In this document: one piece after another, positions 17,070-54,911 of the stretch
How the letters are laid out: every line of letters begins with the position of its first letter
Position numbering within the stretch: the stretch's first letter is position 1
From: a virus
Direction: 5' to 3' (one strand)
DNA length: 64,000 bases
Virus record (IMG/VR): IMGVR_UViG_3300030098_006179
Span: 82,773-146,772 of that record
The notes under the pieces: generated by a model
The model's database searches: none
What the model was told of the DNA's origin: nothing
What the model saw: only the letters and a program-made list of their open reading frames with translations
Program-made: the position numbers and the translations under genes

Positions 17070-17412
17070 TATTATCTATAAAATCTATTATTGTTTTTGG
17101 TTTTCTGGACGTTTTGCCTTTGGGGCCAAGAACCTTATCCCCTAAAGTATACTTCTTTTTTTCTGGTAAAGCAAGCCTAAAAAGGCTTTGTTGTTTATAT
17201 AGAAACTTTAAGCCGTCTTTGGTTAAAAACCAAGCTAGTGAATTTAATTTAAAATCTAATTTTAAAGAAGTAAAAAAATTATCATCTTGAAATTTATCAA
17301 AAAGCTTTTTGGCTATAGCAACCTCTCTTCTCCATCCGGGAACCTTTAAGGATTTTGGATCTTTTAAAAACCTTTCAACAAATATTTGATACTTATTCTT
17401 CTTTCTGGGCAT
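17047..17412 (-). CDS. Conserved-looking small protein between gmd and recA, unknown
   Basis: A 121-residue protein with a basic N-terminus (MPRKKNKYQIF) and an acidic tail (DFIDNNEEENEN). A WRREVAIAKKLFDKFQDDNFF helix is in the middle and a KYTLGDKVLGPKGKTSRKP loop near the end. It overlaps gmd by 20 nt and recA by 23 nt, so it is almost certainly translated from the same mRNA. The charge arrangement suggests DNA contact plus a partner-binding tail, but I do not recognise it. Confidence 0.7.
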   Translation of the reverse strand: MPRKKNKYQIFVERFLKDPKSLKVPGWRREVAIAKKLFDKFQDDNFFTSLKLDFKLNSLAWFLTKDGLKFLYKQQSLFRLALPEKKKYTLGDKVLGPKGKTSRKPKTIIDFIDNNEEENEN

Positions 17413-18448
17413 CTAGGTCAAATTCTACCATTCTTTTTACAAGTTTGTCAAATGTAATTTTTGGTTTCCAACCAAGATTTTCTTTTGCTGCGGTGGGATC
17501 GCCAAGAAGCAGGTCTACTTCTGCGGGTCTATAAAATTTTTCATTTATTACAACCAAACTATGTTTATGACTGCTACCTTTATAAACGTACCTTTCGTCT
17601 AGTCCTTCTCCTTCCCAGTAGCCATCTATTTTAGCAGCTTTAAATGCTAGTTCAACAAATTCTTTTATTGTGTGGGTTTCGCCGCTTGCCAAAAGGTAAT
17701 CTTTAGGTTCTTCTTGGTTGACCATTAACCAAACACCTTCAACAAAATCTTCACTGTCGCTCCAATCTCGCTTTGAATGAATGTTTCCTAATTCAATTGG
17801 AGTTGGGGCTTCTATGTCAATACCTGTACCTAGTTCTTTTTTAATTCTAGCAACGCCTTTGGTAATTTTTCTTGTAACAAATTCTTCCCCACGCTTTGTT
17901 CCTTCGTGATTAAAAAGTGTTCCATGTACGGCGTACATATTATAAGATTCCCTGTATACTTTCACAAGATGCCTAGCAGCGCACTTAGAGGCTCCATATG
18001 GACTGCGAGGTTTGAGTGGGTGCTTCATGTCTTGTGGAGCATAATCAACGTCTCCAAACTCCTCACTGCTTCCCGCACTATAAAATCTACAATTCGGCTG
18101 ATATGCCCTAACCGCTTCTAAACAACGCATGACACCCACTGCGTTAGCGTCAAATACTTGCATGGGCATGTCCCAGCTACAACCAACAAAAGAGTTGGCG
18201 GCAAAGTTGATAAAATAATCTGGTTGAATATCCTGAACTAATTTAGCTATACTGTATTCGTCTACTAAATCACCATATACTAATTGAAAATTTGGGTGAT
18301 CTAAAAAGTTTTCACAATTTGAAAAGTTTGGATTTGATACTCTGCGAATCATACCAAAGACTTTATTCTCTGGGTTTTTTAAAAGGTATTCGCACATATT
18401 GGCCCCATCTTGACCAAGTACTCCAGTTACAAGAATTTTTTTACTCAT
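17393..18448 (-). CDS. gmd: GDP-mannose 4,6-dehydratase
   Basis: A 351-residue extended SDR enzyme that turns GDP-mannose into GDP-4-keto-6-deoxymannose. The NADP site is TGVLGQDGA (Gly-rich loop). The active site includes GSSEEFG and YGASK (Tyr-x3-Lys). The gene starts at the stop of fcl (TAATG) and overlaps the next gene by 20 nt. With fcl downstream of the same promoter it gives GDP-L-fucose, the donor for the two GT11-like enzymes in this window. Gmd in the recombination operon means fucose synthesis is probably expressed with replication genes. Confidence 0.95.
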   Translation of the reverse strand: MSKKILVTGVLGQDGANMCEYLLKNPENKVFGMIRRVSNPNFSNCENFLDHPNFQLVYGDLVDEYSIAKLVQDIQPDYFINFAANSFVGCSWDMPMQVFDANAVGVMRCLEAVRAYQPNCRFYSAGSSEEFGDVDYAPQDMKHPLKPRSPYGASKCAARHLVKVYRESYNMYAVHGTLFNHEGTKRGEEFVTRKITKGVARIKKELGTGIDIEAPTPIELGNIHSKRDWSDSEDFVEGVWLMVNQEEPKDYLLASGETHTIKEFVELAFKAAKIDGYWEGEGLDERYVYKGSSHKHSLVVINEKFYRPAEVDLLLGDPTAAKENLGWKPKITFDKLVKRMVEFDLDAQKEE

Positions 18449-19413
18449 TAAAATGACCTTAAATTATCTTCGTTAGCTCTATACCAATTATATGTACTTT
18501 TCAAGCCTTCTTCTAAAGAAATCGTAGGCTTCCACCCAAAGCTTTTTATTCTTGAATTGTCCATTAATTTTCTTAATGTTCCATCCGGCTTATTTAATTC
18601 AAATTGAATTTCACCTTCGTACATGACTGTGTTAGATATTGTTTTTGCTAAATCTGCAATAGAAATATCTTCACCACTACCAACGTTTAAATGTGAAATA
18701 TTTTTACTATAAATATCTTCTGCATCAACATTTTCTAAAACAAAAACAGCAGCTTTAGCCAAATCGTCTACGTGTAAAAATTCTCTTTTTGCTTTTCCTG
18801 TACCCCAAACATTAACCACGGAACAGATAGCCTGTTTGGCTTCATGGAATTTTCTTAATAATGCTGGTAACACGTGAGAATTATCGGGGTGAAAATTATC
18901 ATTTGGGCCATATAGATTAGTTGGCATTATTGAAATAAAATTACATCCATGTTGTTTATAATAGCTTTCGCACATTTTAATGCCTGCAATTTTTGCTATA
19001 GCATATGGTTCATTTGTATACTCTAATGGAGAAGTTAAGAGGTATTCTTCTTTAATTGGCTGATCTGCAAATTTTGGATATATACAAGAACTCCCCAAGA
19101 ATAATAGTTTCTTTACTCCATGTTTGTGGGATGAATTAATTAAGTTGTTTTGTATTTGTAAGTTTTCATAAATGAAATCTGCTCTATAGGTGTTATTTGA
19201 ATGAATGCCCCCGACTTTCGCCGCGGCATCTATAACAACGTCAACGTCATTTTCTTTAAACCATTTATCTACCGACTGTTGATTTAATAAATCAAGATGT
19301 TGCCTATCTGCAAAATAGATAGTCTTATATCCATTGCTTGATAAATTTCTCATTATTGCTGAACCTACCATTCCATTATGTCCAGCTATAAAAATCTTGG
19401 CATTTTTATTCAC
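18448..19413 (-). CDS. fcl: GDP-L-fucose synthase
   Basis: A 321-residue SDR epimerase/reductase that completes GDP-L-fucose from the Gmd product. The Rossmann loop is IAGHNGMVGSA. The catalytic region has FLGSSCIYPKF and the Tyr/Lys pair in EPYAIAK. PTNLYGPNDNF and HVLPALLRKFHEAK are family signatures. The start is GTG at 19413, 5 nt after a strong -10, so this is a predicted leaderless gene. It is the first gene of the fcl-gmd-recA block. Confidence 0.95.
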   Translation of the reverse strand: MNKNAKIFIAGHNGMVGSAIMRNLSSNGYKTIYFADRQHLDLLNQQSVDKWFKENDVDVVIDAAAKVGGIHSNNTYRADFIYENLQIQNNLINSSHKHGVKKLLFLGSSCIYPKFADQPIKEEYLLTSPLEYTNEPYAIAKIAGIKMCESYYKQHGCNFISIMPTNLYGPNDNFHPDNSHVLPALLRKFHEAKQAICSVVNVWGTGKAKREFLHVDDLAKAAVFVLENVDAEDIYSKNISHLNVGSGEDISIADLAKTISNTVMYEGEIQFELNKPDGTLRKLMDNSRIKSFGWKPTISLEEGLKSTYNWYRANEDNLRSF

Positions 19414-19418
19414 GGTAA

Positions 19419-19447
19419 AGTATAATATATATAATTAGGTATGTCAA
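19419..19447 (-). promoter_or_regulatory. Promoter of fcl-gmd-recA, inside the divergent gene's start
   Basis: Minus strand: TTGACA (19442-19447), 17 nt, TATACT (19419-19424), 5 nt, GTG start of fcl. The -35 hexamer lies over codons 1-3 of the plus-strand gene at 19441, so promoter and divergent coding sequence overlap. A near match to TATAAT on the plus strand lies at 19421-19426. Confidence 0.7.
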
Positions 19448-20169
19448 ATTTAAATGAAATCTGTGTTGGTTTAATAACTTCTTGCTCTAAAAATTACGCA
19501 GAACGTTCAAAAAACATTTTAAATACTTGGGGTAAGGACATTGAACACATTTACTTTTTTACAGATTGCGAAAATAAAGATTACAGATATTTAAATCTAA
19601 CCAAAAATAATTTTCTATCTTCAAACAAAGAAAAGATGATAAAAGGAATTTTAAATTTATATGAAATGAATCTTGATTGTAAATATTATCTTTTGGGAGA
19701 CGACGACAATTATTTTTTTATTAAAAATATTTTAAATTTTTGTAAAAAAAACATTACAGAAAACGAATTAACTTTTTATGGTAGAGATATTTTTAATTGG
19801 AAAATAGGATACTATGACAATGCTAGAGCTATGAATCACGGCGCACACTCTGCTGGAGATACATTAGATTATTGCGGAGGTGGGGGTATTTTGTTTAACT
19901 GTAAATCTTTTAAAAAGATGGGGGAATATATTAAAAATAATTATAATAAAATTATGGAAAAATTTCCTAGGTATGCTGATGTATGCATGGGTTATATATG
20001 TAAATATTCTAGTATTAAATTTATTCCAGAAGATAGATTTCACACTCATTGCTATGTATCTTTTTATGAAGAAGACTATAAAGAAGAAAAAATAAAGTCA
20101 TATTTAGAAGATCAATTTAGTTTTCATAGAATTACTCACGAAGACCACTATAAATTTTTAAATATTTAA
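19441..20169 (+). CDS. Fringe-like (GT31) glycosyltransferase
   Basis: A 242-residue protein with the order of motifs of Fringe-type beta-1,3-N-acetylglucosaminyltransferases. It has an N-terminal strand VGLITSCSKNYAERSKNIL, the metal-binding YYLLGDDDNYFF, the acceptor-side CGGGGILFNCKSF, and a late DVCMGYICKYSSIKFI then DRFHTH. In eukaryotes Fringe extends O-linked fucose. Here a GDP-fucose pathway is encoded directly across the promoter, which makes an O-fucose or fucosylated acceptor an attractive but unproven idea. No signal or membrane segment is present, so it would act in the cytoplasm. It is 1 nt from the next plus-strand glycosyltransferase gene. Confidence 0.75.
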   Translation: MSNLNEICVGLITSCSKNYAERSKNILNTWGKDIEHIYFFTDCENKDYRYLNLTKNNFLSSNKEKMIKGILNLYEMNLDCKYYLLGDDDNYFFIKNILNFCKKNITENELTFYGRDIFNWKIGYYDNARAMNHGAHSAGDTLDYCGGGGILFNCKSFKKMGEYIKNNYNKIMEKFPRYADVCMGYICKYSSIKFIPEDRFHTHCYVSFYEEDYKEEKIKSYLEDQFSFHRITHEDHYKFLNI

Positions 20170-20170: not shown

Positions 20171-21106
20171 ATGAAAATAAATTTAATTATTACAAAAAGT
20201 CAATTAGTTAAAGATTTAGATTCTGAGAAAGAAAAAACAAATCTTAGAGGCCCTAGATCAGCAGTAACTAATTTAATTAAAGGCCTAAATGATCATGGTG
20301 CAAATTATGGAATAACTTTTGACGAAGAGAAGGCAAGTGGAAAAATTGGAGAAGTAAATATTCCTTTAAATATAAATTCGTTAAATATTCTATATAAACA
20401 ATCCGAAGAAATTTTAAAAACTTCTGTGATCGGACCCATGGGGGTTGGTAATGCGTCTGATCGTTTGCCTATATTTCAAAAAATAAAAAAATGTTTAATT
20501 CATAGCAATTGGGTTAAAACATTATATTTAAAACAGCTTGGAGATGCAAAAATTTTTGATGTTGATTTTTACTTATGGGCTGCGGGTATAGATACAGATT
20601 TTTTCAAACCAGAAAATATAAAAAAAGATTTAGATTGTTTTATTTACCATAAAAGTGGACCTATTGAATTATCGTGGCTAAAGGAAAGTTTGGATAAATA
20701 TAAAATAAAATATGAAATATTACAATATGGAAAATATACCCAAAAAGAATTAAAAAATATTTCTAATAGATCTAATTTTTGTATACATTCATCTTTAGAT
20801 GAAACTCAAAACATGGCTGCAATGGAAATTTTAAGTTGTAATGTACCAATGATTATTTTTGATTCTAATTATCGACACCATGTAGATTTTTGTACGTCTT
20901 TGGAATACTTCGATGAAACTTGCGGAATAAAAGTAAACCAAAATGACTTTTATGATCATCGCCCCGACGCTATTGACAAGCCCTTAAATGAAATGATAGA
21001 AAATTATTCTAAATATACTCCTAGAGATTATATTTTAAAAAATCATACAATAGAAAAATCAACCAAACAGTTTTTAAAAGCTGCAGATTGGGTGGCTAAT
21101 GATTAA
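20171..21106 (+). CDS. GT4-like glycosyltransferase
   Basis: A 311-residue GT-B protein. The segment NFCIHSSLDETQNMAAMEIL followed by SCNVPMIIFD has the typical GT4 donor-site order (a small helix, Glu, then a strand of the second Rossmann domain). An earlier KCLIHSNWVKTLYLKQLG and FDVDFYLWAAGIDTDFF fit the interdomain region. It follows the Fringe-like gene by 1 nt and ends in a 4-nt overlap with the convergent oxidoreductase gene. A weak similarity in layout exists to the protein at 36133-37011. Substrates unknown. Confidence 0.7.
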   Translation: MKINLIITKSQLVKDLDSEKEKTNLRGPRSAVTNLIKGLNDHGANYGITFDEEKASGKIGEVNIPLNINSLNILYKQSEEILKTSVIGPMGVGNASDRLPIFQKIKKCLIHSNWVKTLYLKQLGDAKIFDVDFYLWAAGIDTDFFKPENIKKDLDCFIYHKSGPIELSWLKESLDKYKIKYEILQYGKYTQKELKNISNRSNFCIHSSLDETQNMAAMEILSCNVPMIIFDSNYRHHVDFCTSLEYFDETCGIKVNQNDFYDHRPDAIDKPLNEMIENYSKYTPRDYILKNHTIEKSTKQFLKAADWVAND

Positions 21107-21948
21107 AATGGACTCTCGTGTTCTAGAATTTGAGAGATTTGTTTTGTCATTTTTTCTTGTTTTTTAAAGTTAAAATCTTTAGACAGAAAGGATTCTATTG
21201 AATTTATTAGCGGGGATTTGAATTTTATGTCTATTCTTTGATTATTAAATTTTAAAACCTGAGTTACGTCATCCCAATATAGGAAACCCTTTTCAAACTC
21301 AAAAATACAATCCCTATCTTTCTTTCCATAGTACCAGCTTGAATTTATTTGAACTAACGTGCCCCCAAAATCCAATAGCCCTATTGCGCTATCGCTTTTT
21401 ACAGAATTTTTGTTTCTTTTATAGTTTATCCATAAAGTTTTAGATGGCATTTTTTCCAAAACGTGAAGCATAATACTAACGTCGTGAGACGATAAGTCAT
21501 ATCTAGCGTTAACGTCTTTTCTTTCTGGCCCCATGTTTAACCTGTTCATTGTAACGCTTAATAGCTTTCCGTATTGTTTTGATTTACATATAGACTTTAT
21601 AAATTTAACATGATCGTTAAAAGTAAAAATCCAATCTACGAATAATTTTTTCTTGTTATTTTTTGCAATTTTATATAAATGTTCTGTTTCTGTGTAGGAT
21701 GCAGTTAATGGTTTTTCGCAAAAAACATTTGAACCAGAATTTAAAAAATGATAACAAATTTCATAATGCCTGCTTGTGGGAACGCATACGAATACATTTT
21801 TGCATTCAATATCTTGATAGTTTTTAACTATGTTTTTTTCTTTACAAAAGGGGTCGCAAATTATTACATCATCTACATTTAAACTTTTTAGATTATTGTG
21901 TACAACTTTACCCCAATATCCATATCCAATAATGGCCATTTCATTCAT
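21103..21948 (-). CDS. Gfo/Idh/MocA-type sugar dehydrogenase
   Basis: A 281-residue NAD-dependent oxidoreductase. The nucleotide-binding N-terminus is [10 protein letters not shown]. The [14 protein letters not shown] strand is followed by the family's NVFCEKPLT motif, with the catalytic Lys. The second domain has [12 protein letters not shown], matching the conserved HDxD-like segment. It is paired with an N-acetyltransferase (4-nt overlap) and shares the island with DegT aminotransferases, as in WbpB/WbpE/WbpD-type routes that oxidise, aminate and acetylate UDP-sugar C3. That pathway is an inference from content and order. Confidence 0.85.
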
Positions 21949-22394
21949 TTTGCGGGAACTCCTTTGACTAGCGTATTGTCAGGAACGTCTTTTGTAACGA
22001 CTGAACCTGCTCCTATTATACAATTATCTCCAATATTTACTGGAAGTATGGTGGCGTTAGATCCTATTCTTACGTTATTTCCTATTTTTGTTTTTTTCAT
22101 TTTCCATTCTTTGAATTCCTTTGAGTCGGTAAATAAATCATTAACAAACATTACTCCATGAGCAATGAAACAATTTTCTCCAATCTCCACTCCAGAACAT
22201 ATAAAAGAATGACTGCTTATTCTGGAATTTTTTCCTACGCTTGACCCGCTTTGAATTTCTACAAATGGACCTACAAATACTCCATCTTTTAATTCGCATT
22301 CATATAAATTGCACGGCTCTATGAGAGAAATATTTTTTCCAAATTTACATTTTAAAAAAAATAATCTAAATAATTTTCTGACCATTTTTATCAT
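21945..22394 (-). CDS. Left-handed beta-helix sugar O/N-acetyltransferase
   Basis: A 149-residue hexapeptide-repeat protein. Repeats such as [32 protein letters not shown] and [14 protein letters not shown] give the left-handed helix; [17 protein letters not shown] is the usual C-terminal coenzyme A segment. It most resembles WbpD/WlbB-type 3-amino-sugar N-acetyltransferases, and the catalytic His is probably in [12 protein letters not shown]. It overlaps the dehydrogenase gene by 4 nt and the large multidomain gene by 29 nt. Confidence 0.85.
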
Positions 22395-24801
22395 ACGGCA
22401 ATATAAGAGTATAATTTTCTTTTATCAAGGTATGTCTACCCAAATCTATAGAAATTTCTTTACAAAGAATTTTAAAATCGGGATTGTTTGTGTTTTCTAC
22501 AACAATTAAGTTCTTATAATCTTTTAATTTTTTACAAATTTCTTTTGAAGTTTTGTATTCGTTAATAATAATGCAATCTATAGAGTTATCTATTTTTTTA
22601 ATTGATTTATATTTTTTAATGCTTGGATTTAATGGTAGCCAAACTGCCAAGGTTTTTATTAATGAAGAGGAGTTTTTGTGTCGTATTTTATTAATCCAAT
22701 ATTTAATATGAAGTTTATATTTTGTCGTTTTGAATTTGTTAAAAATTTTTTCATATTTTTTACTTAATAAATCTTCTGAAATTTCATTCCAATCTTCGAT
22801 AATTAAGATCGGAAGATCTTTATAGAAAGATACATTGTGGCAGTTTTTAACAATAGGAATAGTTTCCAAATATAAGCATTCCCAAATTCTATGGCAATCT
22901 GTACCCATCCCCTCTGGAGATACAGCGTATTTACATTTAGAAAGATCCTCTAAATATTCTTTAAATGGTTTTCTTTCTGAAAAATGTACATAGTTTAGAT
23001 CTTTTAAATCTTCTAATATCTTTCTTCTACTAGAATTTGTTTTAGTGTCAAAATTTAAATATAATAATTCTTTTTTGTAATTTTTTTGATCGATTATTTC
23101 ATTTAATAATTTAATGTCTCCGTGAGGCCACCTTGCATTTGCAATTCCAAGGGGAATAGATTCTAATTTTTCATGTTCTACATTAGCATTTTGTGCGTAC
23201 CAATTTATAATTTTGTCATTATCTAAATATTTTTTGTAATTGTCTGATATTTTATGAGCGCTATTGTGAGTAATTATATTTATTTTGTATTTTATATTTG
23301 GTAAAACTTTTTCAAAAAAATTAGAAATATAATCAGTTTTAATAAAAATTATTTTGCCGTCTTCTTCTATCAAATTAGAAAAATCACTCTTTTCAAAATC
23401 ATCATATACAAAATCTGAATATTTTCTGAATCCCATTCCAGTTATAATTGGATATGAATCAAGAATTATTTTGGGATCAACTTTAACTTTTTTCTTTATT
23501 AAAGCGCACCCCTTTCCGTTTTTGTTCCATTTATCGCATGTTATTGAATTCTCTAAACAGAAATCATCTACAGCATTATTTACTTCTGGTATAGAGCATC
23601 CATCTGGAGGACCGGAATAGTAATCATCTATTATCATTAATGCTCCGTCGTTCATTTGAGAATAAATTCTTTCTATATCTTCTTTTGCGCCTTCATAAGT
23701 GTGATCTCCGTCTACAAAAGCATAATCTATTCCATTTTTAAAATTTTTATTAAAAAACTCTTTATTTAAAATCTTTTTACTGTCACCTTCTATTACTAAA
23801 TAATTTTCAAAATCATTTTGTAATTTATCAGCTATTTTCCAGCCCTCTTTCCCTGCATAATTTAAATTTATATCAATCGATATAAATTTTTCTGGCTTAA
23901 TTGTGCATAAGGTTGTTGCTGCACTTCTCCCCGTGGCAAATCCTGTTTCTAAGCAATATTTGGGTTTTAATTTTTTTAATTGTTCAATTAAAAAGTCTCT
24001 TTCGTTTTCATTCAAATGTCCCCAAGGATGCCAGTAATTTTCAATAGTTTTTTCATTAAGTGCGGCTTTGCATATAGAATCAATATCTTTTTTGTATTTT
24101 TCATAAGGTCTAGCGCTATGGCAGTCATAATAATACTCAGATTTTACTTTTTCTAAATCAAACTTCCAGTTACTTCTATCTATTCTTCTTCCATTTTGAC
24201 CGCCAGTTCTTGGCATGTATAAAATATCTAATGGGTTAGATTCTTTATATTTCGGAATAACTAAACTTGGATAATCCTCATCCAAAAACCAATATGTTTG
24301 AGTTAATTTTTCTTTTGGATTTTTAAAATCTTGATGAAGCATAGATAAGGAGTCTTCCCATCTTTCTGGCAAGTTCAAAACTTTTTTAAAAGTTCTACCT
24401 AAAGCTATATGATAACAAGATGGAATTCTTCCGTAAGATTCTATACATGGATTTATATGTACGTATTTATTTTCTGAAACATTTTTAATTTGATCTATAA
24501 AGTAATGTTTTGAAAGTGGAAGCATGTCTATATCAGATATAATAGAAACTTTATTGGGAAACAGGGTTGGAAACCAATATCTTATCCATAAAACTTGAAT
24601 AGAAATTGGTATATTTTTTATATATTTCCACCTAAAGACTTTACCGTATTCTTCTGATAATTCAACGTCTTGTTTTTCGTCTATATAAATTAAAATGGGT
24701 TCTACTCCAATTTTTTCTTTCCAAAGTTTGGATACTATTGGCCAAAAATCTAAATAGGAAGAATCAGAATTAGAACTTAGTATTGCTTGGTCTATTTTCA
24801 T
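22366..24801 (-). CDS. Three-domain protein: glycosyltransferase, methyltransferase, exostosin-like
   Basis: An 811-residue fusion. Residues 1-245 look like a GT-A glycosyltransferase with [11 protein letters not shown] (D90-x-D92). Residues about 255-440 are a class I SAM methyltransferase: [13 protein letters not shown] is motif I and [17 protein letters not shown] is the family-24-like segment, followed by [11 protein letters not shown]. Residues about 445-715 are GT47-like, with [20 protein letters not shown] and LETIPIVKN, the exostosin donor site. A final 90 residues are unassigned and overlap the next gene by 29 nt. Such a fusion would add a sugar, methylate it and add another, which fits assembly of a capped glycan. 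The domain order is read directly; substrates are unknown. Confidence 0.8.
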
Positions 24802-25529
24802 TAGAACTCTCTTTGTATTTTAGCTAATTGGTCGTACCACAAAACATTTATTTTTTCTAACATACAATATTCTCTTTTTTTTATGAGAGATAAATCTAAA
24901 GGTGGAGCCCAATTTCCTTTTGGTTTATATCTATCGTCTAAACCATTAAAAAAGTCATATAAATCAGCTTCTATTGTAATATTATTTTCAGACATACTCT
25001 CGGCATTTCTATATGTTATGTATTCTTTTAATGTTTTAATTTCCATAAACCAAGAACCAGTATTAAATTGTCTCGGAACATATTTACCAAATGTATTTGT
25101 TGGGTTTTGTAAAAAATTTTTATATAAATTAAAATTTAACATTTTTTGTCTAGGTTCATGAAAAAATACATATTTATAATTTCGAAATACAGGCCAATTA
25201 GCTTCCCACGATTCTATTAGTCCTGCGCCCTTGTTATTTTGGCCATGTTTATTTTTTGTTTTTTTGTACGAAAAAATTATATTTGCCTCGCTAGGTATAG
25301 CGTTCAAAATTCGCTTATCTACTTCAGACTTATCGTTGACTGTATTATCTATAACATAAACGTTTTCATAAAAACCAACATGTTTATTAAAATGGTAAAA
25401 AAACGATTTAAAACCTTCAACAAATTGAAGAACTCTTTCTTCTCCGTCGTTAACATAAGACTTGTGTTTAAATTCTTTTGAATTGAAAGCGCATCTAAGT
25501 TCAAAAATTATATCTTTTTTAGGTTCCAT
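24801..25529 (-). CDS. Unknown glycan-island protein, copy A1
   Basis: A 242-residue protein. Its N-terminal DIIFELRCAFNSKEF, GEERVLQFVEGFKSFF, VYVIDNTVND and NKGAGLIESWE segments match, in the same order, the protein at 35486-36136, so the two are paralogues. A beta strand ending in a polar residue (YVFFHEPRQKML) resembles a GT-A centre. Probable glycosyltransferase of unrecognised family. It abuts the 811-residue fusion (TAATG) and the aminotransferase. Confidence 0.55.
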   Translation of the reverse strand: MEPKKDIIFELRCAFNSKEFKHKSYVNDGEERVLQFVEGFKSFFYHFNKHVGFYENVYVIDNTVNDKSEVDKRILNAIPSEANIIFSYKKTKNKHGQNNKGAGLIESWEANWPVFRNYKYVFFHEPRQKMLNFNLYKNFLQNPTNTFGKYVPRQFNTGSWFMEIKTLKEYITYRNAESMSENNITIEADLYDFFNGLDDRYKPKGNWAPPLDLSLIKKREYCMLEKINVLWYDQLAKIQREF

Positions 25530-25532
25530 GTC

Positions 25533-45990: not shown

Positions 45991-46449
45991 ATGTCTTTAT
46001 TTGAGCACAATAAACCCGTAATAAGAAAAAAAAATAACGTTATTGAAATAGGTAGCGAAACCCAACAAACAGAAGTAAAGGGTGATTTAGAGATACGGGG
46101 AACAGTTCATGTAACTAATCCGGCATTTATTCCAAAGTTTGAGGCGGGAGAAAAAATGAAAATTTTCGCTTTAAATAATGGTTCTGCGGGTTGGGTAAAT
46201 CATTCTCCTCAATCTTTAGTTAATTTTAGCGGTACGGCACTTGAGGATTTTATTTATGTGCAAAGCACGGTTGGTTTTGAAAAGGGAAATGACTGGGTTT
46301 TAAATCCCGGCGGCTCTAATATGGAAAGCGGAAAAGTTGAATTTAAATTAGGCTCAAAGTTGTTTATATCTGGAAGTGGAACAAATAGTGGATTATTTTA
46401 TAATCACGATAAAGGAGAAAGAATCATAAACTTGACGTATGCCTTGTGA
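45991..46449 (+). CDS. Probable virion protein, unknown
   Basis: A 152-residue beta-rich protein. NVIEIGSETQQTEVKGDLEI, DLEIRGTVHVTN and IPKFEAGEKMKIF look like a short fibre-shaft repeat region. It has an AAGGA ribosome-binding site 8 nt before ATG 45991, one of few clear ones in the window. Its stop overlaps the GTG start of the next gene (GTGA). Confidence 0.55.
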   Translation: MSLFEHNKPVIRKKNNVIEIGSETQQTEVKGDLEIRGTVHVTNPAFIPKFEAGEKMKIFALNNGSAGWVNHSPQSLVNFSGTALEDFIYVQSTVGFEKGNDWVLNPGGSNMESGKVEFKLGSKLFISGSGTNSGLFYNHDKGERIINLTYAL

Positions 46450-47636
46450 GTTTAGAAAATCACACAAAATATACAAGCAGCCCAACCGGACAACATAAAA
46501 ATGTTCTAGGTGGGGGAGGAATTTTTACGGAAAGTGGATCGCCAGTAGGGTTAGAAAAAGTTAGAATTATAAATAAAAACGAATCAGATTCTGACAATTT
46601 AATAATTAATAGAACAAGCTCAGATATAAATTTTGATAGTAGAACTACCACTAATCAAATAGTAAATTTTTGTAAAACTTACAATAGCGGATTTAATGGA
46701 GAAATTTTTGGAGATGCTATTATTTATTATCCGGGGTATTCGTACGACTCAAGTTATTGTTATAATCTTTTTGCTGTAACTGGAAATTTTTCGGGACAAA
46801 ATGGAACAACTTCAAAATTAAGATTTTATTTTTCACCAGAAGATCCAGAAAGTTTTTTAGTTGGGTCTGGCATAAGTGCTGGAGACAATGAAGTGTTTTT
46901 TCCAGAAATGCAAAAATCAATTTTAAGAAAACACTTTTATTATATAGAAAAAGAACAAGAAGTTTTTTCTGATCGTTACGACTCTTGGGTGTCTGGCAGC
47001 GGTAATTATCTTGATGTAAAATTTGGAACAAATAATCAAGAGACAGGTACAATAACTGGAATTTCAGGAAATCACTTTCTTTTAGAGAACCCGATTACTA
47101 AAGATGTTTTACACGGGGATAGAATAGTTTCAACGAATACTTTGCATACGCCTCCGTCTGGAGAAACTGGATATGCTCAAAATTTTCAAGTTAGAATTGA
47201 CAATAATAGCGATGGAAATAGCAGATTCTACATAGCCGGATCAGGTGTTACAGGGGGGTGTCATTTAGGTGGTACATTTACTGGCGATGGATATACTTTT
47301 TTTGAAACTCCTGTGATTGACGTATACAGAGGATTCACTTACTTTTTTAACCAACACCATTCAACAAATCACCACGAATATATGATGTTCTCTTATACCT
47401 CTGGAGGTCATCATGAGGGAGGCTCTGTTATAACCGGAAAATATAAGGTTGATCAGGGTGGATCAAATTATTGTTTTAATAATTATTGTAGTTATCATTG
47501 TCCTGACGAACAGACTTTTATGATTCCAATTGATGAAAGTTCGCCGGACAAAATTTATTATTACGCTTCAGGTACAAATCACGTGGGTGGAACCGGGTAT
47601 TTGAATGTAATAACTTCTGGAGATGGAGCTAACTAA
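46446..47636 (+). CDS. Virion protein with cupredoxin-like C-terminal domain
   Basis: A 396-residue protein starting at GTG 46446. The last 110 residues include VYRGFTYFFNQHHSTNHHEY, a His-rich segment, and SPDKIYYYASGTNHVGGTGY. This is similar in layout to a domain repeated in structural proteins of marine phages (G-x-TYxF then YYYCxxHxxMGG) that looks like a cupredoxin; whether copper binds is unknown. The N-terminal part is a Ser/Gly/Asn-rich beta region. It precedes the 1850-residue repeat protein by 2 nt. Confidence 0.6.
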   Translation: MSLENHTKYTSSPTGQHKNVLGGGGIFTESGSPVGLEKVRIINKNESDSDNLIINRTSSDINFDSRTTTNQIVNFCKTYNSGFNGEIFGDAIIYYPGYSYDSSYCYNLFAVTGNFSGQNGTTSKLRFYFSPEDPESFLVGSGISAGDNEVFFPEMQKSILRKHFYYIEKEQEVFSDRYDSWVSGSGNYLDVKFGTNNQETGTITGISGNHFLLENPITKDVLHGDRIVSTNTLHTPPSGETGYAQNFQVRIDNNSDGNSRFYIAGSGVTGGCHLGGTFTGDGYTFFETPVIDVYRGFTYFFNQHHSTNHHEYMMFSYTSGGHHEGGSVITGKYKVDQGGSNYCFNNYCSYHCPDEQTFMIPIDESSPDKIYYYASGTNHVGGTGYLNVITSGDGAN

Positions 47637-47638
47637 TT

Positions 47639-50600
47639 ATGGCAACTTGGAGATTATACGGACAGGGTAGAGCGGACGTTGATAACGACGGTTACTGTGC
47701 GGGTAGTGATAGTTATGGTGATTATGTATACCTACAAGGTCTGAGGGGTTATACTAGTTGTGCTAACGCGGCAAGCGCTTCAAAAGATGATACTCAGGGA
47801 TCAGGAGATAATAGTTCTTTATATGTAAAGAGGATTAATACGGGTAAAATTTTAGCTAGCAATGGTTCTACCGAAAGAACTTCATTGAATGATGTTGTTG
47901 TTGGTGATTTTATATACGCTTGCAGTTCTGGTGGCACTAATTATCCAATAGCTTTAACGGGTGCGGATGATGATTGTGATGTGTGCGGTAGAGACAATAA
48001 TGAAGGCACGGTTTATGACAATGTCGTTGTTGATAATAATAGTGAGCCTTGGTTCATGTTGTATACTAGCGATGGTGCTTCCGGAATTATTGTTAAAATT
48101 GATGTTACCTCAAATTCGCCCGGAGAAATTTTAGCGATAAGTAATAATCATGACACTTGCGCTTCTGGAGGAGGAGCATCAGCTTCTGCTTCAGCTTCTG
48201 GTACTATCTCGGGTACTGTTTCGGGGACTAAATCGGGTTCTGTCTCTGGTACGGTTTCTAATAGCGCAAGCTGCTCTCCGGACTGTAATCAATATTATCC
48301 AAATAGCGCTACAGGGTTTACCTGTGAGTACTATATAACAGACAGTAATGACAACCAACAGTTTGAATTAAATGGAGTAGCCTATGATGTTGATGACAAA
48401 TGCCCAATGTTTACGATCGCAAAGTATTGCGAAAGAGAAATATGTATTGGAGACTCTTCTTTAGCTAGTAGTGCTGCTGGGGCTCAATTAAGATTTACTA
48501 CAGAAGACGATCCTAAAAATAAAGGAACGCTCACTGAATCTGGAACCAAAGAAATAACATCGGGAATAACTAGGGTTGGAGCACCCGGAACAGCTGGATC
48601 TACTGTTAAAATAAGACCAGATAGTAATTGGCCAGAAAATACAAAAATTTACGTATACTTTGGAGATTCTAATGGCGCTGATATTTTCGGCGGATGGATA
48701 TATGTTGTGCCAAGTAGCGATTGCGCGCCTTGTTCTCCGGGGTCAGCTTCTGGTTCTGTTTCTGGAACCATATCTGGAACCAAGTCGGGTTCTGCTTCTG
48801 GTACTGTTTCTGGAACCATATCTGGAACCAAGTCAGGTTCTGCTTCTGGCACTGTTTCTGGAACCATATCTGGAACCATATCTGGAACCAAGTCGGGTTC
48901 TGCTTCTGGAACCGTTTCTGGAACCAAGTCAGGTTCTGCTTCTGGAACCGTTTCTGGAACCATATCTGGAACCAAGTCAGGTTCTGCTTCTGGAACCGTT
49001 TCTGGAACCGCTTCTGAATCAATATCTGGAACTATATCTGGAACGGCTTCTATTTCTGGAACTGTATCTGGCACCAAGTCGGGTTCAGTCTCCGGCACTG
49101 TTTCTGGAACTGTCTCTGGAACTGTTTCTGGAACCATATCTGGAACTAAATCAGAATCTGCGTCAGCTTCAAATTCAGCCGCGCCTACTTGTCTTACCAC
49201 TGCTTACGCGTTAAAAGTCAGTATTGTTGATGGAGCCTTGGTTGTCAAGGAATACGATGGATCAAGTTACGTTGTGAGGGGCAATACTTTATATGTAGGA
49301 AAATATTGTACTATAGTTTTTGATATTAGTGACAGTTCGAATGTTTCTCATGTAACTTTTACTAAAAGTGGTTTGAATTATTCTGGCGGAGTATCTTATC
49401 AGGGAAGCGCTGGTAATCCCGGTGCCCAAACTAGAATTGAAATTCAAGGCGATTTACCTTATCCAACGGCGCTTGTATATTTTCAAAGTTCTGGAGGTAC
49501 GAGTTATGCGGGTGGATCAATTAATATAGTTTCAGGGTGCGAATGTCCCGGATCGCCTTCTGGCACGGCTTCTGGAACCAAGTCGGGTTCTGCTTCTGGA
49601 ACCATATCTGGGACCAAGTCAGGTTCTGCTTCTGGAACCGTTTCTGGAACCAAGTCGGGTTCTGCTTCTGGTACTGTTTCTGGAACCGTATCTGGAACCA
49701 TATCTGGAACCAAGTCGGGCTCAGTCTCTGGAACCGTTTCTGGAACCGTTTCTGGAACCATATCTGGAACCAAATCGGGTTCAATTTCTGGAACCGTTTC
49801 TGGAACCGCTTCTGGAACCAAGTCGGGTTCTGTTTCTGGAACTTTTTCTCAAAGCATTTCTGGAACATTGTCAGGATCTAGATCTACATTTAATCTTCCA
49901 GCGTTGGTGTTCTTTGCTTGGGTTCATTCAAGAGAATATACTTTTGACAACATTGGTGGGGATCCAGAATTTGAAGAATGGTCCAAAAAAACAACAAATA
50001 AAGATGGAGAAAGTGGAGTATACGAAGACGGAGGAGTAACAAAATATAGACAGCACTCTCCGCTGGTTGGAGTAAGTTTTGATTTTAACATAGCAAACAC
50101 AATTCAATTCAAGCCTGACCCCGATCAGGAAGGAGTTAGTTTGAGTTTGTATGATGTGTGGAAAAGATTATATGATCCTACAAAATATGAAACAGTTGGT
50201 GGCGTTTCATACGCATGGGGAGATCAAACTTGGAAAAAACTGAGAAAATTAGTGGTTGCTGAATTCATCAAAGCGATGAGGGCAGAGTTGAAAAAGGTAG
50301 ATGTAAAATTAGAAGATGATTGGCAAGAAATTTTTTACCAACTATCTCGTGGCGGAGGCGGATATGAAAGCTGTTTAACAAACTCTGCGAAGAACGAAAG
50401 CCACAATTGGAAAAAATCAGATTTAGTATTAAGAGTTAGACAATTATATGGAGGCAATAACGTGTGTGACTCGGGGGTTTATGAAGACGAATGGACTATT
50501 TATAATAAATTATATAAAGTTGGAAACCAAAATAATGATCAAGTGTTAACTTGGAGTACCAAGGGGCAAAGAGATCAAAATTGGATATTCTGTGACGAAG

Positions 50601-53191
50601 CACTTATTCCTAGATTCAAGATTAATTCTAGCAATTTTAAAGAAACCAATTGGCCCCCAGAGGGTGTTGGCTCCCTTGATGTATTTTTAGGTAACATCGC
50701 AGATATTTCGCACTGGGAACACGAACCAAGTGCCACAGCAAAAGTGAACAATGATAAGAAGTCTCCAAATCTAGACCAAACTTATAAAGAGAAAAGCGAG
50801 GATCAACTTTGTGAATTATTGATGCCTTGTGATATTAAGAGTACGGTGTCATTGCCGGGTTTGCCACCGGGAACAAGAGGGGCTTCGCTTTCTCAGTGGG
50901 TAATAAAAATGCCCCACATGGGTGATGGACATGGTGGTGCTGTTCCTGCGGACAATTTAAGTGATGGATTTTTTGTTGCAGATGACGGCGACGGTAAAAA
51001 CGACGCAATTCAACCGTGCGAAACACCAGTTGACGATTGTCCAAAGAAACCCGTGTTAGCAAAGCCTAGCGTAACAGAAAGCACGCAATGTCTAAGAGCT
51101 ACGCCTTTATGGTTTAACTTTAATTTAACAGAGAAAGTTTGGATTCCGGGCGCAAAAGACTCGGTAGATAAAATGTGGAGTAGGAATTCTGGCATCACTA
51201 AAGTTTTAACATTCTATTATGGAAATAAAGCTGCTAAATTTGACAACGACAACATTATTGATCAGGGTGATTTTGGTAATCCAGACGGAAATTTAACAAA
51301 CTATTTAGAAACCCTTTATGATAAACCTGCGGATAACAACAATCTTCCCGCGCTCGCAGGTATTGATGAAAATTCACAAGCAGATGATATGGATTATGTT
51401 CTTCCGCCAAATAATGGGGCATGGAAGCTGAAGTACAATGCCGCAAATATAGGATTGAATTCTATTAGACCCTTTATGGGATTAGGTGAATTATCATTTA
51501 ATATGGGACAAGTAGTGAAAGGCTTCACCACCGGATGGAAAAGTATTCTATATTATAATATGGAACAAGATAAAAAACCTTTTTGTCTATATAGTCAATT
51601 TAATCAATACAACAAAAGCAGGGCTAACATAACGAGTACTCGTGGTTTAAATTTTGCAGAAGAAAAAGACTTAAGTATTCCTCTATATCCAATTTTAGTA
51701 AAAGACTATAAAACAAACGATAATACAAACGGAGATAGATATTTAGCTGCCGACATTGAAGCTGTAGATCCCAAACCTCCAAAATCAGAGCAAGATGTTA
51801 TAGATGAAGAATTAGAACCTCTACATACTCAATGTTGGTACGGAGAGTCAGAGATTATGGTTTCAATAAGCTCAGACTCAGGAACAGATGTTGACGCATA
51901 TATAGACAGAGTAAAAATTAGTGTTGGAGTTGGAATGTACATGACCAATGATGGAGACGGAATTAAAATCAAACCCGAAATTACAGATAATGAAGGGAAT
52001 ATAGATTTTGACGCCGCAAGTAAAATGGCTGCTTATATAAATGTTGATTTTGGGGGTGCTTGGGTCGATGACAATGGTGAAGCCGGAAATTACGCCGAAT
52101 TTATAAAAGACATAGGCAGCAAGCACGAATTCGCGTTTACGTTTGATGAAATCAATAAAAAACCAAACACTCTCAAACTTGGAAAACCAGCAGGATTTAG
52201 TGGTGTAGATGAATTTACCCAAGGCTTTTCACAAAACCAACAAAAAGGCAGTATTCGTGACAGTAATTGGCTCGCCGTTTGCTCTAAAGGTTTGGCGAGT
52301 TTGGCTACTTGGAGTTCTGATCAAATGATCACCGATAAGAATATAATTGGTAAGCTTGGAGTAGATAACTCATTTGAGTTGCATTACTGGAGAATAAGAA
52401 GAGGCTACGCTAGATTTTCAAGAGACTATAGTGAAAATATGAATGTGAAAACGCCGCCACCAATAGATGGAATTGATGCAACCTATCAAACTAAAACTGT
52501 TTCTTTCATTGATAGTGATGGTGATGATGTTAATGACACTGTTTTATTTGAGATCGATAAAGAAAACTTGAGTTATAATTCTTATAGAGAAGCCGACGGC
52601 ACTATAGCTGACAAGATTGGAATTTTAATAAGAGGTATAATCAAAGCTCATTTTACTCATGGCGTGTGGCAACCATCTTCGAATACAGCCCCTTTAACCA
52701 CTAGAGTAAACTCACTATATCGTTATGGAACAAGGGCATATAAAGAAACTATGGCTTTTGGAAAAAACAACGGCGATTACGGTTTGTTTGTTGGAGATTT
52801 TGGCGACGAAGAAAATATTCAGTTGCAGAGCGAAGGAGTGTTTCTTGCTTCGAAGAAGCAAATGTCTCCAGATACTATAAACCCTTCCCATAATCCAGCT
52901 TGCATGTATTACTATGGCTGGAGTCAGCTAAACGATCAATACGCTCTTGATATCTATTCATATATGCACAGAGCATATCTTGTTGATGGAAACGAAACAT
53001 TTGACATGCTTTATCTACACGGTCCAGTAGGCGCTTGGGGAACCGCATGGGATAGCAAATTTGGCGCATATAAAATTGCTGGTCAAGTCAATTTTAAGCA
53101 GGGTGGAGATGAAACTTGGCCTTCTATGTCTTTCCCGGTTATATCTTATTCTAATAAAGTGGGTCAAGACTATGACGAAGATGAGGTATAG
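47639..53191 (+). CDS. Giant Ser-Gly-Thr repeat virion protein
   Basis: A 1850-residue protein, the largest in the window. Residues 1-180 are a Cys-containing beta domain. Three blocks of SGT/SGS/SGTKSG tripeptides (about 180-211, 368-514 and 638-749) separate two further globular domains with Cys pairs (CSPDCNQ, CECPGS). Residues 750-1850 are a large non-repetitive region rich in Asp, Asn and Trp with no domain I recognise. The repeats would make extended, Ser/Thr-rich linkers like those in surface or fibre proteins. Ser/Thr content makes them possible O-glycosylation targets of the phage's own glycosyltransferases, which is speculation. The gene ends 57 nt before the next promoter and GT11-like gene. 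Confidence 0.75.
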   Translation: MATWRLYGQGRADVDNDGYCAGSDSYGDYVYLQGLRGYTSCANAASASKDDTQGSGDNSSLYVKRINTGKILASNGSTERTSLNDVVVGDFIYACSSGGTNYPIALTGADDDCDVCGRDNNEGTVYDNVVVDNNSEPWFMLYTSDGASGIIVKIDVTSNSPGEILAISNNHDTCASGGGASASASASGTISGTVSGTKSGSVSGTVSNSASCSPDCNQYYPNSATGFTCEYYITDSNDNQQFELNGVAYDVDDKCPMFTIAKYCEREICIGDSSLASSAAGAQLRFTTEDDPKNKGTLTESGTKEITSGITRVGAPGTAGSTVKIRPDSNWPENTKIYVYFGDSNGADIFGGWIYVVPSSDCAPCSPGSASGSVSGTISGTKSGSASGTVSGTISGTKSGSASGTVSGTISGTISGTKSGSASGTVSGTKSGSASGTVSGTISGTKSGSASGTVSGTASESISGTISGTASISGTVSGTKSGSVSGTVSGTVSGTVSGTISGTKSESASASNSAAPTCLTTAYALKVSIVDGALVVKEYDGSSYVVRGNTLYVGKYCTIVFDISDSSNVSHVTFTKSGLNYSGGVSYQGSAGNPGAQTRIEIQGDLPYPTALVYFQSSGGTSYAGGSINIVSGCECPGSPSGTASGTKSGSASGTISGTKSGSASGTVSGTKSGSASGTVSGTVSGTISGTKSGSVSGTVSGTVSGTISGTKSGSISGTVSGTASGTKSGSVSGTFSQSISGTLSGSRSTFNLPALVFFAWVHSREYTFDNIGGDPEFEEWSKKTTNKDGESGVYEDGGVTKYRQHSPLVGVSFDFNIANTIQFKPDPDQEGVSLSLYDVWKRLYDPTKYETVGGVSYAWGDQTWKKLRKLVVAEFIKAMRAELKKVDVKLEDDWQEIFYQLSRGGGGYESCLTNSAKNESHNWKKSDLVLRVRQLYGGNNVCDSGVYEDEWTIYNKLYKVGNQNNDQVLTWSTKGQRDQNWIFCDEALIPRFKINSSNFKETNWPPEGVGSLDVFLGNIADISHWEHEPSATAKVNNDKKSPNLDQTYKEKSEDQLCELLMPCDIKSTVSLPGLPPGTRGASLSQWVIKMPHMGDGHGGAVPADNLSDGFFVADDGDGKNDAIQPCETPVDDCPKKPVLAKPSVTESTQCLRATPLWFNFNLTEKVWIPGAKDSVDKMWSRNSGITKVLTFYYGNKAAKFDNDNIIDQGDFGNPDGNLTNYLETLYDKPADNNNLPALAGIDENSQADDMDYVLPPNNGAWKLKYNAANIGLNSIRPFMGLGELSFNMGQVVKGFTTGWKSILYYNMEQDKKPFCLYSQFNQYNKSRANITSTRGLNFAEEKDLSIPLYPILVKDYKTNDNTNGDRYLAADIEAVDPKPPKSEQDVIDEELEPLHTQCWYGESEIMVSISSDSGTDVDAYIDRVKISVGVGMYMTNDGDGIKIKPEITDNEGNIDFDAASKMAAYINVDFGGAWVDDNGEAGNYAEFIKDIGSKHEFAFTFDEINKKPNTLKLGKPAGFSGVDEFTQGFSQNQQKGSIRDSNWLAVCSKGLASLATWSSDQMITDKNIIGKLGVDNSFELHYWRIRRGYARFSRDYSENMNVKTPPPIDGIDATYQTKTVSFIDSDGDDVNDTVLFEIDKENLSYNSYREADGTIADKIGILIRGIIKAHFTHGVWQPSSNTAPLTTRVNSLYRYGTRAYKETMAFGKNNGDYGLFVGDFGDEENIQLQSEGVFLASKKQMSPDTINPSHNPACMYYYGWSQLNDQYALDIYSYMHRAYLVDGNETFDMLYLHGPVGAWGTAWDSKFGAYKIAGQVNFKQGGDETWPSMSFPVISYSNKVGQDYDEDEV
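48177..49885 (+). repeat. Three blocks of SGT-type coding repeats
   Basis: Blocks at about 48177-48270, 48742-49178 and 49552-49885 encode tandem tripeptides built from Ser-Gly-Thr, Ser-Gly-Ser and Ser-Gly-Thr-Lys units. The DNA itself repeats almost exactly in 9- to 36-nt units such as TCTGGAACCATATCTGGAAC. Such sequence is prone to slippage and recombination, so the block length may vary between strains. It also creates long but meaningless open frames on the other strand. Confidence 0.9.
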
Positions 53192-53210
53192 TAAAATGTC
53201 ATAAAAATAA

Positions 53211-53239
53211 TTGACAATTACTTTATTTTCATTTATATA
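53211..53239 (+). promoter_or_regulatory. Promoter for the 53248 fucosyltransferase gene
   Basis: TTGACA (53211-53216), exactly 17 nt, TATATA (53234-53239). The GTG start of the next gene is only 8 nt further on, so the mRNA would start at or within two bases of the codon. Confidence 0.7.
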
Positions 53240-53247
53240 TTATATAA

Positions 53248-54204
53248 GTGAAAAAATCATTAAACCATATTCACTGGATAGGCAGATTCGGAAACAGAAT
53301 GTTTCAGGTAGCCTATGGAAAAATGTTTGAAAAAGCATTTGGTGTAGAATTTAGAGTATGTTCCGAATGGGAGGGAGATACCCTTTTTAAAAATTGTAAA
53401 TCAAAATTAATTTCAAATAAATTAAGAGAAGATTTGGTAACCTACGGAAAAGATCCAAAAGGTCAAACACTAGAAGGTTGGCACGAAATAGTCAACAAGC
53501 ACGATAAGAAAATAAAAAACATGTGGCCATATGATTTTGGCACTTGGGCAAAACCAGATACAGATTTATGGATGGAGTGTGGTTGTTGGGACTCTGAATA
53601 TATTTTTGATAAATATAATAAAAAAGATTTAAAAAAAATATTTGAGTTTTCTGATGAAGTAAAAAAATCCGACTTATACAAAAGGGCAGAAGATAAACAG
53701 GGAACTTATGACATAGCCCATTTGAGAAGAGACGATATAGTATTTGAGGATGCATCTCACAACTGGAACTATCCAGTAATATCTAGACAGTCTTATGAAA
53801 AAGCATTTCAAATGTTTGGGTTTGACAGAAGAAAAATAGAGTGGATATCTGATGATTTTCCAAGCCATCCAAACATGGGGTGGAATTATCCTACGGGGCA
53901 AGTTAAACAAGAAGATATTTTTTATGACTTTTTTCCCGATTTTCTTAAATTGTATTTTGCTAGAACTATATTTAGAGCAAATTCATCTTTTAGTTGGTGG
54001 GCTTCATTTTTAGCTCCAGTAGCTACAGTTTACAGTCCGATACTTCACGATAGAATTCTATATAACCAGCAAGGAAAAGAGTTGAATTGTGAATTTATAC
54101 AATCAAACACTCCACATTTTATGCATGTTTTAGGATACTCTTTTGGAGAGGAATGCCCGCATGAGGGGTATCATACCTGTCCTTTCATAAATATAAAAGA
54201 TTAA
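53248..54204 (+). CDS. GT11-like fucosyltransferase, divergent
   Basis: A 318-residue protein. HWIGRFGNRMFQVAYG matches the N-terminal GT11 motif and TIFRANSSFSWWASFLA the C-terminal one, but the HxRRGDY donor motif reads IAHLRRDDIVF, with Gly to Asp. The rest differs from the GT11 at 39635-40480. A fucosyl- or related transferase on a GDP-sugar is likely. It starts with GTG; any later start would cut the first motif. It is paired with an FkbM methyltransferase 2 nt downstream, which may methylate the added sugar. Confidence 0.8.
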   Translation: MKKSLNHIHWIGRFGNRMFQVAYGKMFEKAFGVEFRVCSEWEGDTLFKNCKSKLISNKLREDLVTYGKDPKGQTLEGWHEIVNKHDKKIKNMWPYDFGTWAKPDTDLWMECGCWDSEYIFDKYNKKDLKKIFEFSDEVKKSDLYKRAEDKQGTYDIAHLRRDDIVFEDASHNWNYPVISRQSYEKAFQMFGFDRRKIEWISDDFPSHPNMGWNYPTGQVKQEDIFYDFFPDFLKLYFARTIFRANSSFSWWASFLAPVATVYSPILHDRILYNQQGKELNCEFIQSNTPHFMHVLGYSFGEECPHEGYHTCPFINIKD

Positions 54205-54206
54205 TT

Positions 54207-54911
54207 ATGTTTTCTCAATTTGGACAAGACAAATACGTTATTGAAAATATTTTCAAAGGTAAAAAGAATGGTTTTTACATTGATGTGGGTGCTCATGATG
54301 GAGTGTTTATATCTAACACAAATTTACTAGAGAAAAAATTTAAATGGAAAGGCGTATGTATTGAACCAAGCTCTTCCTCTTCTATGCTTAAATTAAATAG
54401 AGATGAAGATTGTAAGATTGTATCTAATTATTGCGTTTGCGATAACGAGGTTTCAAATCAAATAGTTAGACTGAGAGAATTTTTTCCAAATGAAATAAGC
54501 GAAACAATTTTTAAAGATTTATATGAAGAACCCCATTGGGCTAAAGAGCTAGAGAAGGGGGAAAATTATAAAGATAAATTAAAAAAATGCAAAACACTTG
54601 ATGAGATATTAGAAGAAAGCTCTTGCCCTGAAAATATTGATTATATTTCGATAGATACTCAAGGTTGCGAGTTGCTCGTAGTGAAAGATTTTCCATTTAA
54701 AAAGTGGAATGTAAAAGCTTTTACCATAGCTAATGACATGTATCAAGGTGGAGAAAAAGAAAAGAATAGAAATAAAACTAAAAAGCTTTTGGAAAAGAAT
54801 GGATACGTTTTAGATAGATCATTTTCTCTTCATCATTTAGATAAAAATAACTGGGAAAACAATTACAAAGACCAGATTCTTGAAGATTTATATATTAAAC
54901 AAGATAATTAA
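54207..54911 (+). CDS. FkbM-family methyltransferase
   Basis: A 234-residue methyltransferase of the FkbM type: FSQFGQDKYVIENIFKG, GFYIDVGAHDGVFISNT, WKGVCIEPSSSS and NIDYISIDTQGCELLVVKDF are all conserved. These enzymes O-methylate sugars. The gene follows the GT11-like gene by 2 nt. Its last 17 bases overlap the end of the convergent gene at 54895-55200. Confidence 0.9.
   Translation: MFSQFGQDKYVIENIFKGKKNGFYIDVGAHDGVFISNTNLLEKKFKWKGVCIEPSSSSSMLKLNRDEDCKIVSNYCVCDNEVSNQIVRLREFFPNEISETIFKDLYEEPHWAKELEKGENYKDKLKKCKTLDEILEESSCPENIDYISIDTQGCELLVVKDFPFKKWNVKAFTIANDMYQGGEKEKNRNKTKKLLEKNGYVLDRSFSLHHLDKNNWENNYKDQILEDLYIKQDN

Follow-up and report, generated by a model that had tools for sequence, protein, structure and literature searches.

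Large, variable gene clusters of the lipopolysaccharide (LPS) type are known from the phages P-SSM2, S-SSM7 and S-SM2 (PMC3037559) and also from jumbo phages (PMC7824862), and the pelagimyophages carry variable clusters for glycans and host recognition (PMC7029224). We analyzed a 64,000-nucleotide stretch (the window) corresponding to positions 82,773–146,772 of the linear, 162,379-base and possibly incomplete IMG/VR virus record IMGVR_UViG_3300030098_006179, in which a long series of glycan genes separates a RecA-like gene from the gene of the ribonucleotide reductase (RNR) beta subunit. Coordinates refer to the window unless the record is named, and genes lie on the minus strand unless the plus strand is indicated. 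The site between recA and RNR is a hypervariable slot, and what it holds is very probably a glycan cassette, hypervariable and exchanged between relatives, that belongs to a marine tailed phage.

The island is a further, unusually large cluster of a known type, in another lineage. As in clusters of the P-SSM2 kind, many NDP-sugar and glycosyltransferase genes are adjacent, and the contents vary at a fixed position. The cluster of Prochlorococcus phage P-SSM2 (AY939844, PSSM2_257-271) shares with it gmd, nucleotide-sugar epimerases, genes of glycosyltransferase families 11 and 6 (GT11 and GT6) and many other glycosyltransferases; in both phages tail-fibre genes are not far off, and the GT6-linked 4-epimerases are 57% identical. 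P-SSM2 is, however, a T4-like member of the Kyanoviridae whose cluster has 15 genes, with no dTDP-sugar or DegT gene annotated in it, whereas the island analyzed here has about twice that number. The pelagimyophage host-recognition cluster (PMC7029224) is likewise hypervariable, occupies a fixed place in marine phages and combines tail fibres with glycosyltransferases, but it is located between structural genes of T4-like phages; the present island instead separates recA/gmd from RNR, in a lineage whose DNA polymerase is of PolIII type. Because such clusters are known from P-SSM2, S-SSM7 and the pelagimyophages, the kind is not new; an earlier reading made from the letters of the window (the sequence-only reading) had stressed its extent, and it is indeed large, but large variable clusters exist elsewhere and the scale is not unprecedented. 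New, as far as the literature searched shows, are the recA–RNR cassette site, the GT11–GT6 pair as a common phage module, and a set of genes resembling those of human LH3 in tailed phages.

Variability of the site was established by comparing, with blastp, all 190 open reading frames with four large relatives (G001 to G004), which have the backbone in common. The RecA-like protein (15978–17069) and the RNR beta subunit (55697–56722) are its left and right anchors. The distance between them is 38.6 kb in this phage, 5.9–23.5 kb in longer contigs of relatives and 1.36–9.6 kb across the 74 loci with both anchors, a set that includes many duplicates of one contig and in which larger gaps are not visible. 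In G001, gmd abuts the RNR gene and the island is nearly nil. G002 shares with this phage the end carrying gmd and fcl and the end carrying GT6, GT11, the epimerase and GT2, the middle being different, and G004 has a different gene set. When 102 proteins from the islands of twelve relatives were tallied by Pfam, they proved to be chiefly epimerases, methyltransferases, nucleotidyltransferases, DegT proteins and glycosyltransferases, with UDP-galactopyranose mutase also among them. Contigs from other metagenomes span the gmd end of the island with 100% identity. Near the right anchor lies a conserved backbone protein with one membrane segment (45248–45565), found in 88 loci with up to 91% identity. 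Fixed flanks, namely the RecA-like gene with gmd on one side and this small gene with RNR on the other, enclose exchangeable contents, a layout comparable with that of a bacterial O-antigen locus. Signal-peptidase-I-like genes also recur beside the variable site, both in the window (55230–55700) and in the loci of relatives, where they make up 4 of the 102 island proteins.

In the interval 17393–54911, the curated Pfam cut-offs are exceeded by 24 proteins, 23 of them with a sugar or transferase role; another 8–9 have weak or fold-level support, or homology solely to other phage island genes, giving about 32, and the totals vary with the treatment of weak calls. The figure of at least 30 genes put forward by the sequence-only reading is thus reached when weak calls are counted and not by the curated cut-offs. 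That reading had also treated the whole interval as a single system. Glycan genes do occur throughout, but the island proper (17393–44888) and a fibre insert (45640–54911) lie apart, with the conserved backbone gene at 45248–45565 between them. The island genes are tightly packed and overlapping, without interruption.

Of the sugar-nucleotide routes proposed earlier, several were supported by Pfam and NCBIfam searches. For GDP-L-fucose, both GDP-mannose 4,6-dehydratase (gmd, 17393–18448; Pfam and blastp) and GDP-L-fucose synthase (fcl, 18448–19413; Pfam Epimerase and NCBIfam, 54% to P-SSM2) are present at family level, gmd being retained where a relative's island is all but absent; genes for making GDP-mannose were not recognised. 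For dTDP-4-keto-6-deoxyglucose, the thymidylyltransferase RmlA (27986–28894) and the dehydratase RmlB (28894–29838), both also detected by Pfam, exceed their NCBIfam equivalog cut-offs (361.3 against 360.65 and 404 against 365, respectively); fcl (477.8 against 500), gmd and all others fall under theirs. The cupin that follows (29835–30218), for which no solved relative was found, had been called RmlC-like. A cupin is present, but its top Pfam match is FdtA, barely over the cut-off (24.8 bits against 23), with RmlC second, and it could be a 3,4-ketoisomerase instead of an epimerase. The closest solved relative of the DegT aminotransferase at 25533–26657 (Pfam) is QdtB, an enzyme of dTDP-3-amino sugars, and a hexapeptide sugar acetyltransferase with unspecified substrate lies at 21945–22394 (Pfam, NCBIfam). 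Taken together, rmlA, rmlB, the cupin, the QdtB-like aminotransferase and the acetyltransferase suggest a dTDP-3-acetamido sugar of the Qui3NAc or Fuc3NAc type. Other donor genes code for a UDP-sugar 4-epimerase-type SDR (41576–42487; Pfam), which is the P-SSM2-like epimerase mentioned above, two CTP_transf_like proteins, one TagD-like (cytidylyltransferase, 30199–30621) and one HldE-C/TagD-like (42484–42918), and an HddA-like GHMP kinase (42915–43874), the last three detected by Pfam and NCBIfam. The heptose-type kinase and nucleotidyltransferase predicted earlier are therefore both present, but no isomerase or phosphatase was found among the proteins scanned, and a complete heptose route was rejected.

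The remaining island genes are mostly transferases. Above the Pfam cut-offs are a Fringe-like glycosyltransferase (19441–20169, plus strand), a GFO/IDH/MocA sugar dehydrogenase (21103–21948; also NCBIfam), an 811-amino-acid protein with Methyltransf_24 and xylosyltransferase-like RXYLT1_C domains (22366–24801), a second Methyltransf_24 protein (27453–27986), a Glyco_trans_1_2 glycosyltransferase (31416–32336), a LicD-like protein with the domain matched in part (32339–33829; also NCBIfam), a second DegT aminotransferase (37014–38126; also NCBIfam) and two GT2 proteins (38254–38940, and the GT2-like 43875–44888). A GT4-like protein with a P-SSM2 homologue (20171–21106, plus strand) and a methyltransferase-like protein (30614–31423) score under the cut-offs. 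The product of 36133–37020 is glycosyltransferase-like and 55% identical to that of a gene of the huge phage LR745206, and the Pfam scan assigned no family to 40474–41583. Structure models of two unnamed paralogue pairs (24801–25529 with 35486–36136, and 26624–27451 with 33816–34595) have a pLDDT of 58–60 and give only a hint of a GT-A-like fold. The metallo-beta-lactamase-fold protein at 34588–35496 (Pfam) has no relatives in the related phages; its TDPW stretch may resemble CMP-Neu5Ac hydroxylase.

Two adjacent genes of the island belong to the families of the enzymes that make histo-blood-group antigens. The GT6 protein (38937–39650), an ABO-type alpha-1,3-Gal(NAc) transferase by Pfam and motif alignment, has as its closest solved relatives the Bacteroides ovatus enzyme BoGT6a (E = 2e-43) and the human ABO transferases (E = 5e-38), and the neighboring gene codes for a GT11 alpha-1,2-fucosyltransferase (39635–40480; Pfam and phage comparison); the pairing of GT6 with an alpha-1,2-fucosyltransferase is common to these systems. 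BoGT6a transfers GalNAc to 2'-fucosyl-lactose, giving A-type products, and GT6 in two cyanophages had been recorded previously (PMC3961637). Most bacterial GT6 enzymes have lost the metal-binding DXD motif (PMC3961637), whereas 5 of 5 phage copies aligned retain it. At the donor-selecting position the phage enzyme and BoGT6a have AGG; since QGC replaces it in the G002 copy, the donors of the two phage enzymes probably differ. By its motif match to BoGT6a, the enzyme analyzed here is predicted to add GalNAc onto Fuc-alpha-1,2-Gal, and gmd, fcl, GT11, GT6 and the 4-epimerase together resemble, by family membership, a histo-blood-group A/H-type module. In a tblastn survey of GenBank phages, most of the cyanophages observed to carry GT6 had it paired with GT11: GT11 adjoins GT6, or is at most about 2 kb off, in S-CAM9, S-PRM1, S-8S53, S-8S55, SynMITS9220M01, B23, DSL-LC02, DSL-LC03, P-SSM2, P-SSM5, ACG-2014f and three marine single-cell viruses, and the two genes are about 20 kb apart in the huge phage LR756502. 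A single-protein scan of IMG/VR with GT6 gave no confirmed match.

The sequence-only reading had described a near-complete system that may make a full phage-specified glycan, which is not supported in that form. GDP-mannose synthesis was not recognised, the island encodes no flippase, polymerase, ligase or ABC exporter, the initiating phosphoglycosyltransferase PF02397 has no match in the whole record, and a Kyte-Doolittle hydrophobicity scan detected no membrane segment in the island enzymes. The island thus lacks what makes an O-antigen-type locus complete (an initiating transferase, a flippase, and a polymerase or ABC exporter). As export, flipping and initiation are not encoded in it, the chain would be built in the cytoplasm, either on virion proteins or on lipid-linked precursors made by the host. 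During infection, the enzymes would convert GDP-mannose, glucose-1-phosphate and UDP-sugars taken from the host into donors that include GDP-L-fucose and a dTDP-3-acetamido-3,6-dideoxyhexose, from which cytoplasmic transferases would assemble a fucosylated glycan, possibly ending in GalNAc-alpha-1,3-(Fuc-alpha-1,2)-Gal. We prefer the phage's own fibre proteins as main acceptor, giving this proposal about an even chance, with the host surface as its main rival.

Remodeling of the host surface polysaccharide during infection, for instance to block adsorption of competing phages, is an explanation that we hold possible, if on the doubtful side. It is the published reading of comparable clusters of P-SSM2 type and of pelagimyophages (PMC7824862, PMC7029224), the enzymes are typical of O-antigen loci, and the LicD-like and TagD-like genes fit surface polymers. 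The absence from the island of export and initiation genes and of membrane segments speaks against it, as this route would depend wholly on host machinery.

Candidate acceptors for the preferred fibre reading are encoded in the fibre insert and around the start of the window. The insert, on the plus strand, begins with three fibre-like genes without relatives in related phages (45640–47636) and continues with an 1850-amino-acid fibre-like protein (47639–53191), a candidate O-glycan acceptor with three Ser-Gly-Thr repeat tracts that total about 300 residues (32% Ser, 16% Thr). Downstream follow a GT11-like glycosyltransferase, a distant paralogue of that at 39635–40480 (53248–54204; 24%, E = 1.5e-6), and an FkbM methyltransferase above the Pfam cut-off (54207–54911). 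A collagen-like protein of 752 amino acids begins before the window, with its C-terminal part at 1–1542 (plus strand; Pfam Collagen), and has Gly-X-Y triplets in which Y is often Lys; a 249-amino-acid protein with a collagen domain is encoded just before it (record 81304–82053), and in the collagen-like proteins of this phage Lys occupies about a third of Y positions. The record also contains the GT25, PLOD glucosyltransferase and lysyl-hydroxylase domains of collagen glycosylation of the LH3/COLGALT type. A 717-amino-acid fusion outside the window (record 16741–18894) joins GT25 (COLGALT1, E = 1e-38) to the glucosyltransferase/accessory parts of LH3 (E = 2e-51), and a separate gene (record 146725–147249) codes for a homologue of the LH3 lysyl-hydroxylase domain (E = 1e-18); it starts at 63953 on the plus strand, continues past the window end at 64000 and has a 10-base N run just beyond it. 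The PHROG label '2OG-Fe(II) oxygenase' for the fusion is misleading, the matched part being the PLOD glucosyltransferase. The same three domains occur in human LH3 (PLOD3) and COLGALT1 and in mimivirus L230 and R699, but the order differs, with GT25 fused to the LH3 glucosyltransferase/accessory part and the hydroxylase apart in this phage, whereas in Synechococcus phage S-PRM1, S-8S55 and Roseobacter phage CRP-6 the glycosyltransferase part and the hydroxylase form one protein. Homologues of the fusion in S-PRM1, S-CAM9, S-8S53/55/56 and CRP-6 are annotated as hypothetical or as 2OG oxygenase. Close by in S-PRM1, S-8S55 and CRP-6 is a collagen-bearing gene, annotated as tail fibre in the latter two and hypothetical in the first, with Lys at 26–44% of Y positions; G001 and G002 have neither an LH3-like enzyme nor Lys at collagen Y positions. 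Glycosylation of hydroxylysine is predicted for the Lys-rich collagen-like fibres. A review names this modification among viruses solely for mimivirus (PMC8968730), and we found no description of it for a tailed phage in the literature searched.

Several points weigh against fibre proteins as the acceptor. The proposal is drawn from genes, and transferases of the cytoplasm might just as well work on lipid-linked precursors of the host, which is what previous authors supposed in the case of comparable clusters. None of the relatives has a counterpart of the Ser-Gly-Thr repeat protein, which was rejected as a lineage-wide acceptor. Nor do repeats and island go together, since G001 has a fibre rich in Ser/Thr but no island at the site. 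The LH3-like genes are not part of the island, and their products may act independently of it. In a survey of 155 viral loci with collagen-like frames, 4 carry an LH3-like enzyme and 151 do not; Lys makes up at least 18% of Y positions in 4 of the 4 enzyme loci, with a median share of 0.23 against 0.08 without enzyme (Mann-Whitney p = 0.03), a merely nominal link whose support is modest, since many Lys-rich collagen loci have no enzyme in the stretch examined. In the preferred reading, the repeat protein and the collagen-like proteins, the latter modified by the phage LH3/COLGALT1-like enzymes, would be the acceptors, and changing the cassette contents would alter virion adsorption or shielding. 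A more far-reaching version, which is rather unlikely, has the lineage build glycoprotein fibres with enzymes that the virus itself encodes, as giant viruses do: collagen-like fibres would bear Gal-Glc linked to hydroxylysine, the Ser-Gly-Thr fibre would bear a fucosylated, blood-group-A-like glycan that can be swapped, and relatives would differ in virion 'serotype'.

Two further explanations are improbable. The transferases might glycosylate phage DNA bases and so evade restriction: phage glycosyltransferases capable of this are cited in PMC12619734, and 43875–44888 gives a very weak TAGT match (16.7 bits against a cut-off of 27.5). The record, however, contains no PF13640-type dioxygenase, the TET/JBP-type and deoxynucleotide hydroxymethylase families not having been searched separately, and we know of no DNA glycosylation route with so many sugar types and methyltransferases. 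Equally improbable is a functionless cargo serving as filler ('stuffer DNA') for headful packaging, which has been suggested of LPS clusters in cyanophages (PMC3037559) and agrees with contents that vary freely among relatives; the tightly packed, overlapping genes, the recurrence of the GT11–GT6 pair across unrelated phages and the DXD motif retained by GT6 speak against it. A false join of bacterial and phage sequence, or the edge of a prophage, to which the bacterial type of the sugar genes and a terminase relative (78%) on a contig binned with a Flavobacteriales metagenome-assembled genome might point, can be dismissed, as phage genes lie on both sides, the same flanks enclose other sugar genes in relatives assembled from independent samples, and the gmd end recurs, without a mismatch, in contigs of other metagenomes.

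The phage origin assumed by the sequence-only reading is supported, and the stretch is not bacterial chromosome. PHROG and Pfam scans identified on the record a terminase large subunit, PhoH, a PolIII-type DNA polymerase, a sigma factor, a Clp protease and a cell-wall hydrolase, and primase, helicase and RNR genes are on the record or beside the island. IMG/VR contains 527 relatives of the terminase, the best-listed ones among GenBank phages have only about 24–26% identity, and a nucleotide search with window positions 1–25000 gave no match in GenBank phages. Judged from these comparisons, the lineage is a common marine one to which hundreds of contigs belong, with no near cultured member in the GenBank phage collection; the binned contig gives a weak lead to Flavobacteriales as host. 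The terminase large subunit, a single continuous gene of 1.8 kb in the four relatives, is split into two frames here (record 25465–26781 and 27048–27305), between which there may be an intron or insert. The polymerase (6694–9264) is separated by an exonuclease-like gene and a cupin gene from an upstream protein (10221–10985) that may be its N-terminal PHP part. Backbone proteins include a conserved glycosyltransferase-like one with DUF4214 (4259–6145; Pfam, 52–57% in three relatives) and one taken for a glycosyltransferase by eye, without Pfam match (59627–60700; 52–59% in relatives). Beyond the window are a shortened nucleotide-sugar dehydrogenase of UDP-glucose type (record 150362–151198), present in G003 too, and a sulfotransferase-family protein (record 152895–153485), possibly for sugar sulfation.

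Named phages whose hosts are on record, namely S-PRM1, S-CAM9, S-8S55 and CRP-6, offer examples of the recurrent GT11–GT6 pair and the LH3-like set. Should virion proteins prove to be the acceptors, marine phages would possess glycan loci that can be exchanged and that determine what a virion displays to hosts and predators, and this would alter the interpretation of phage host range and of 'LPS genes' in phages.

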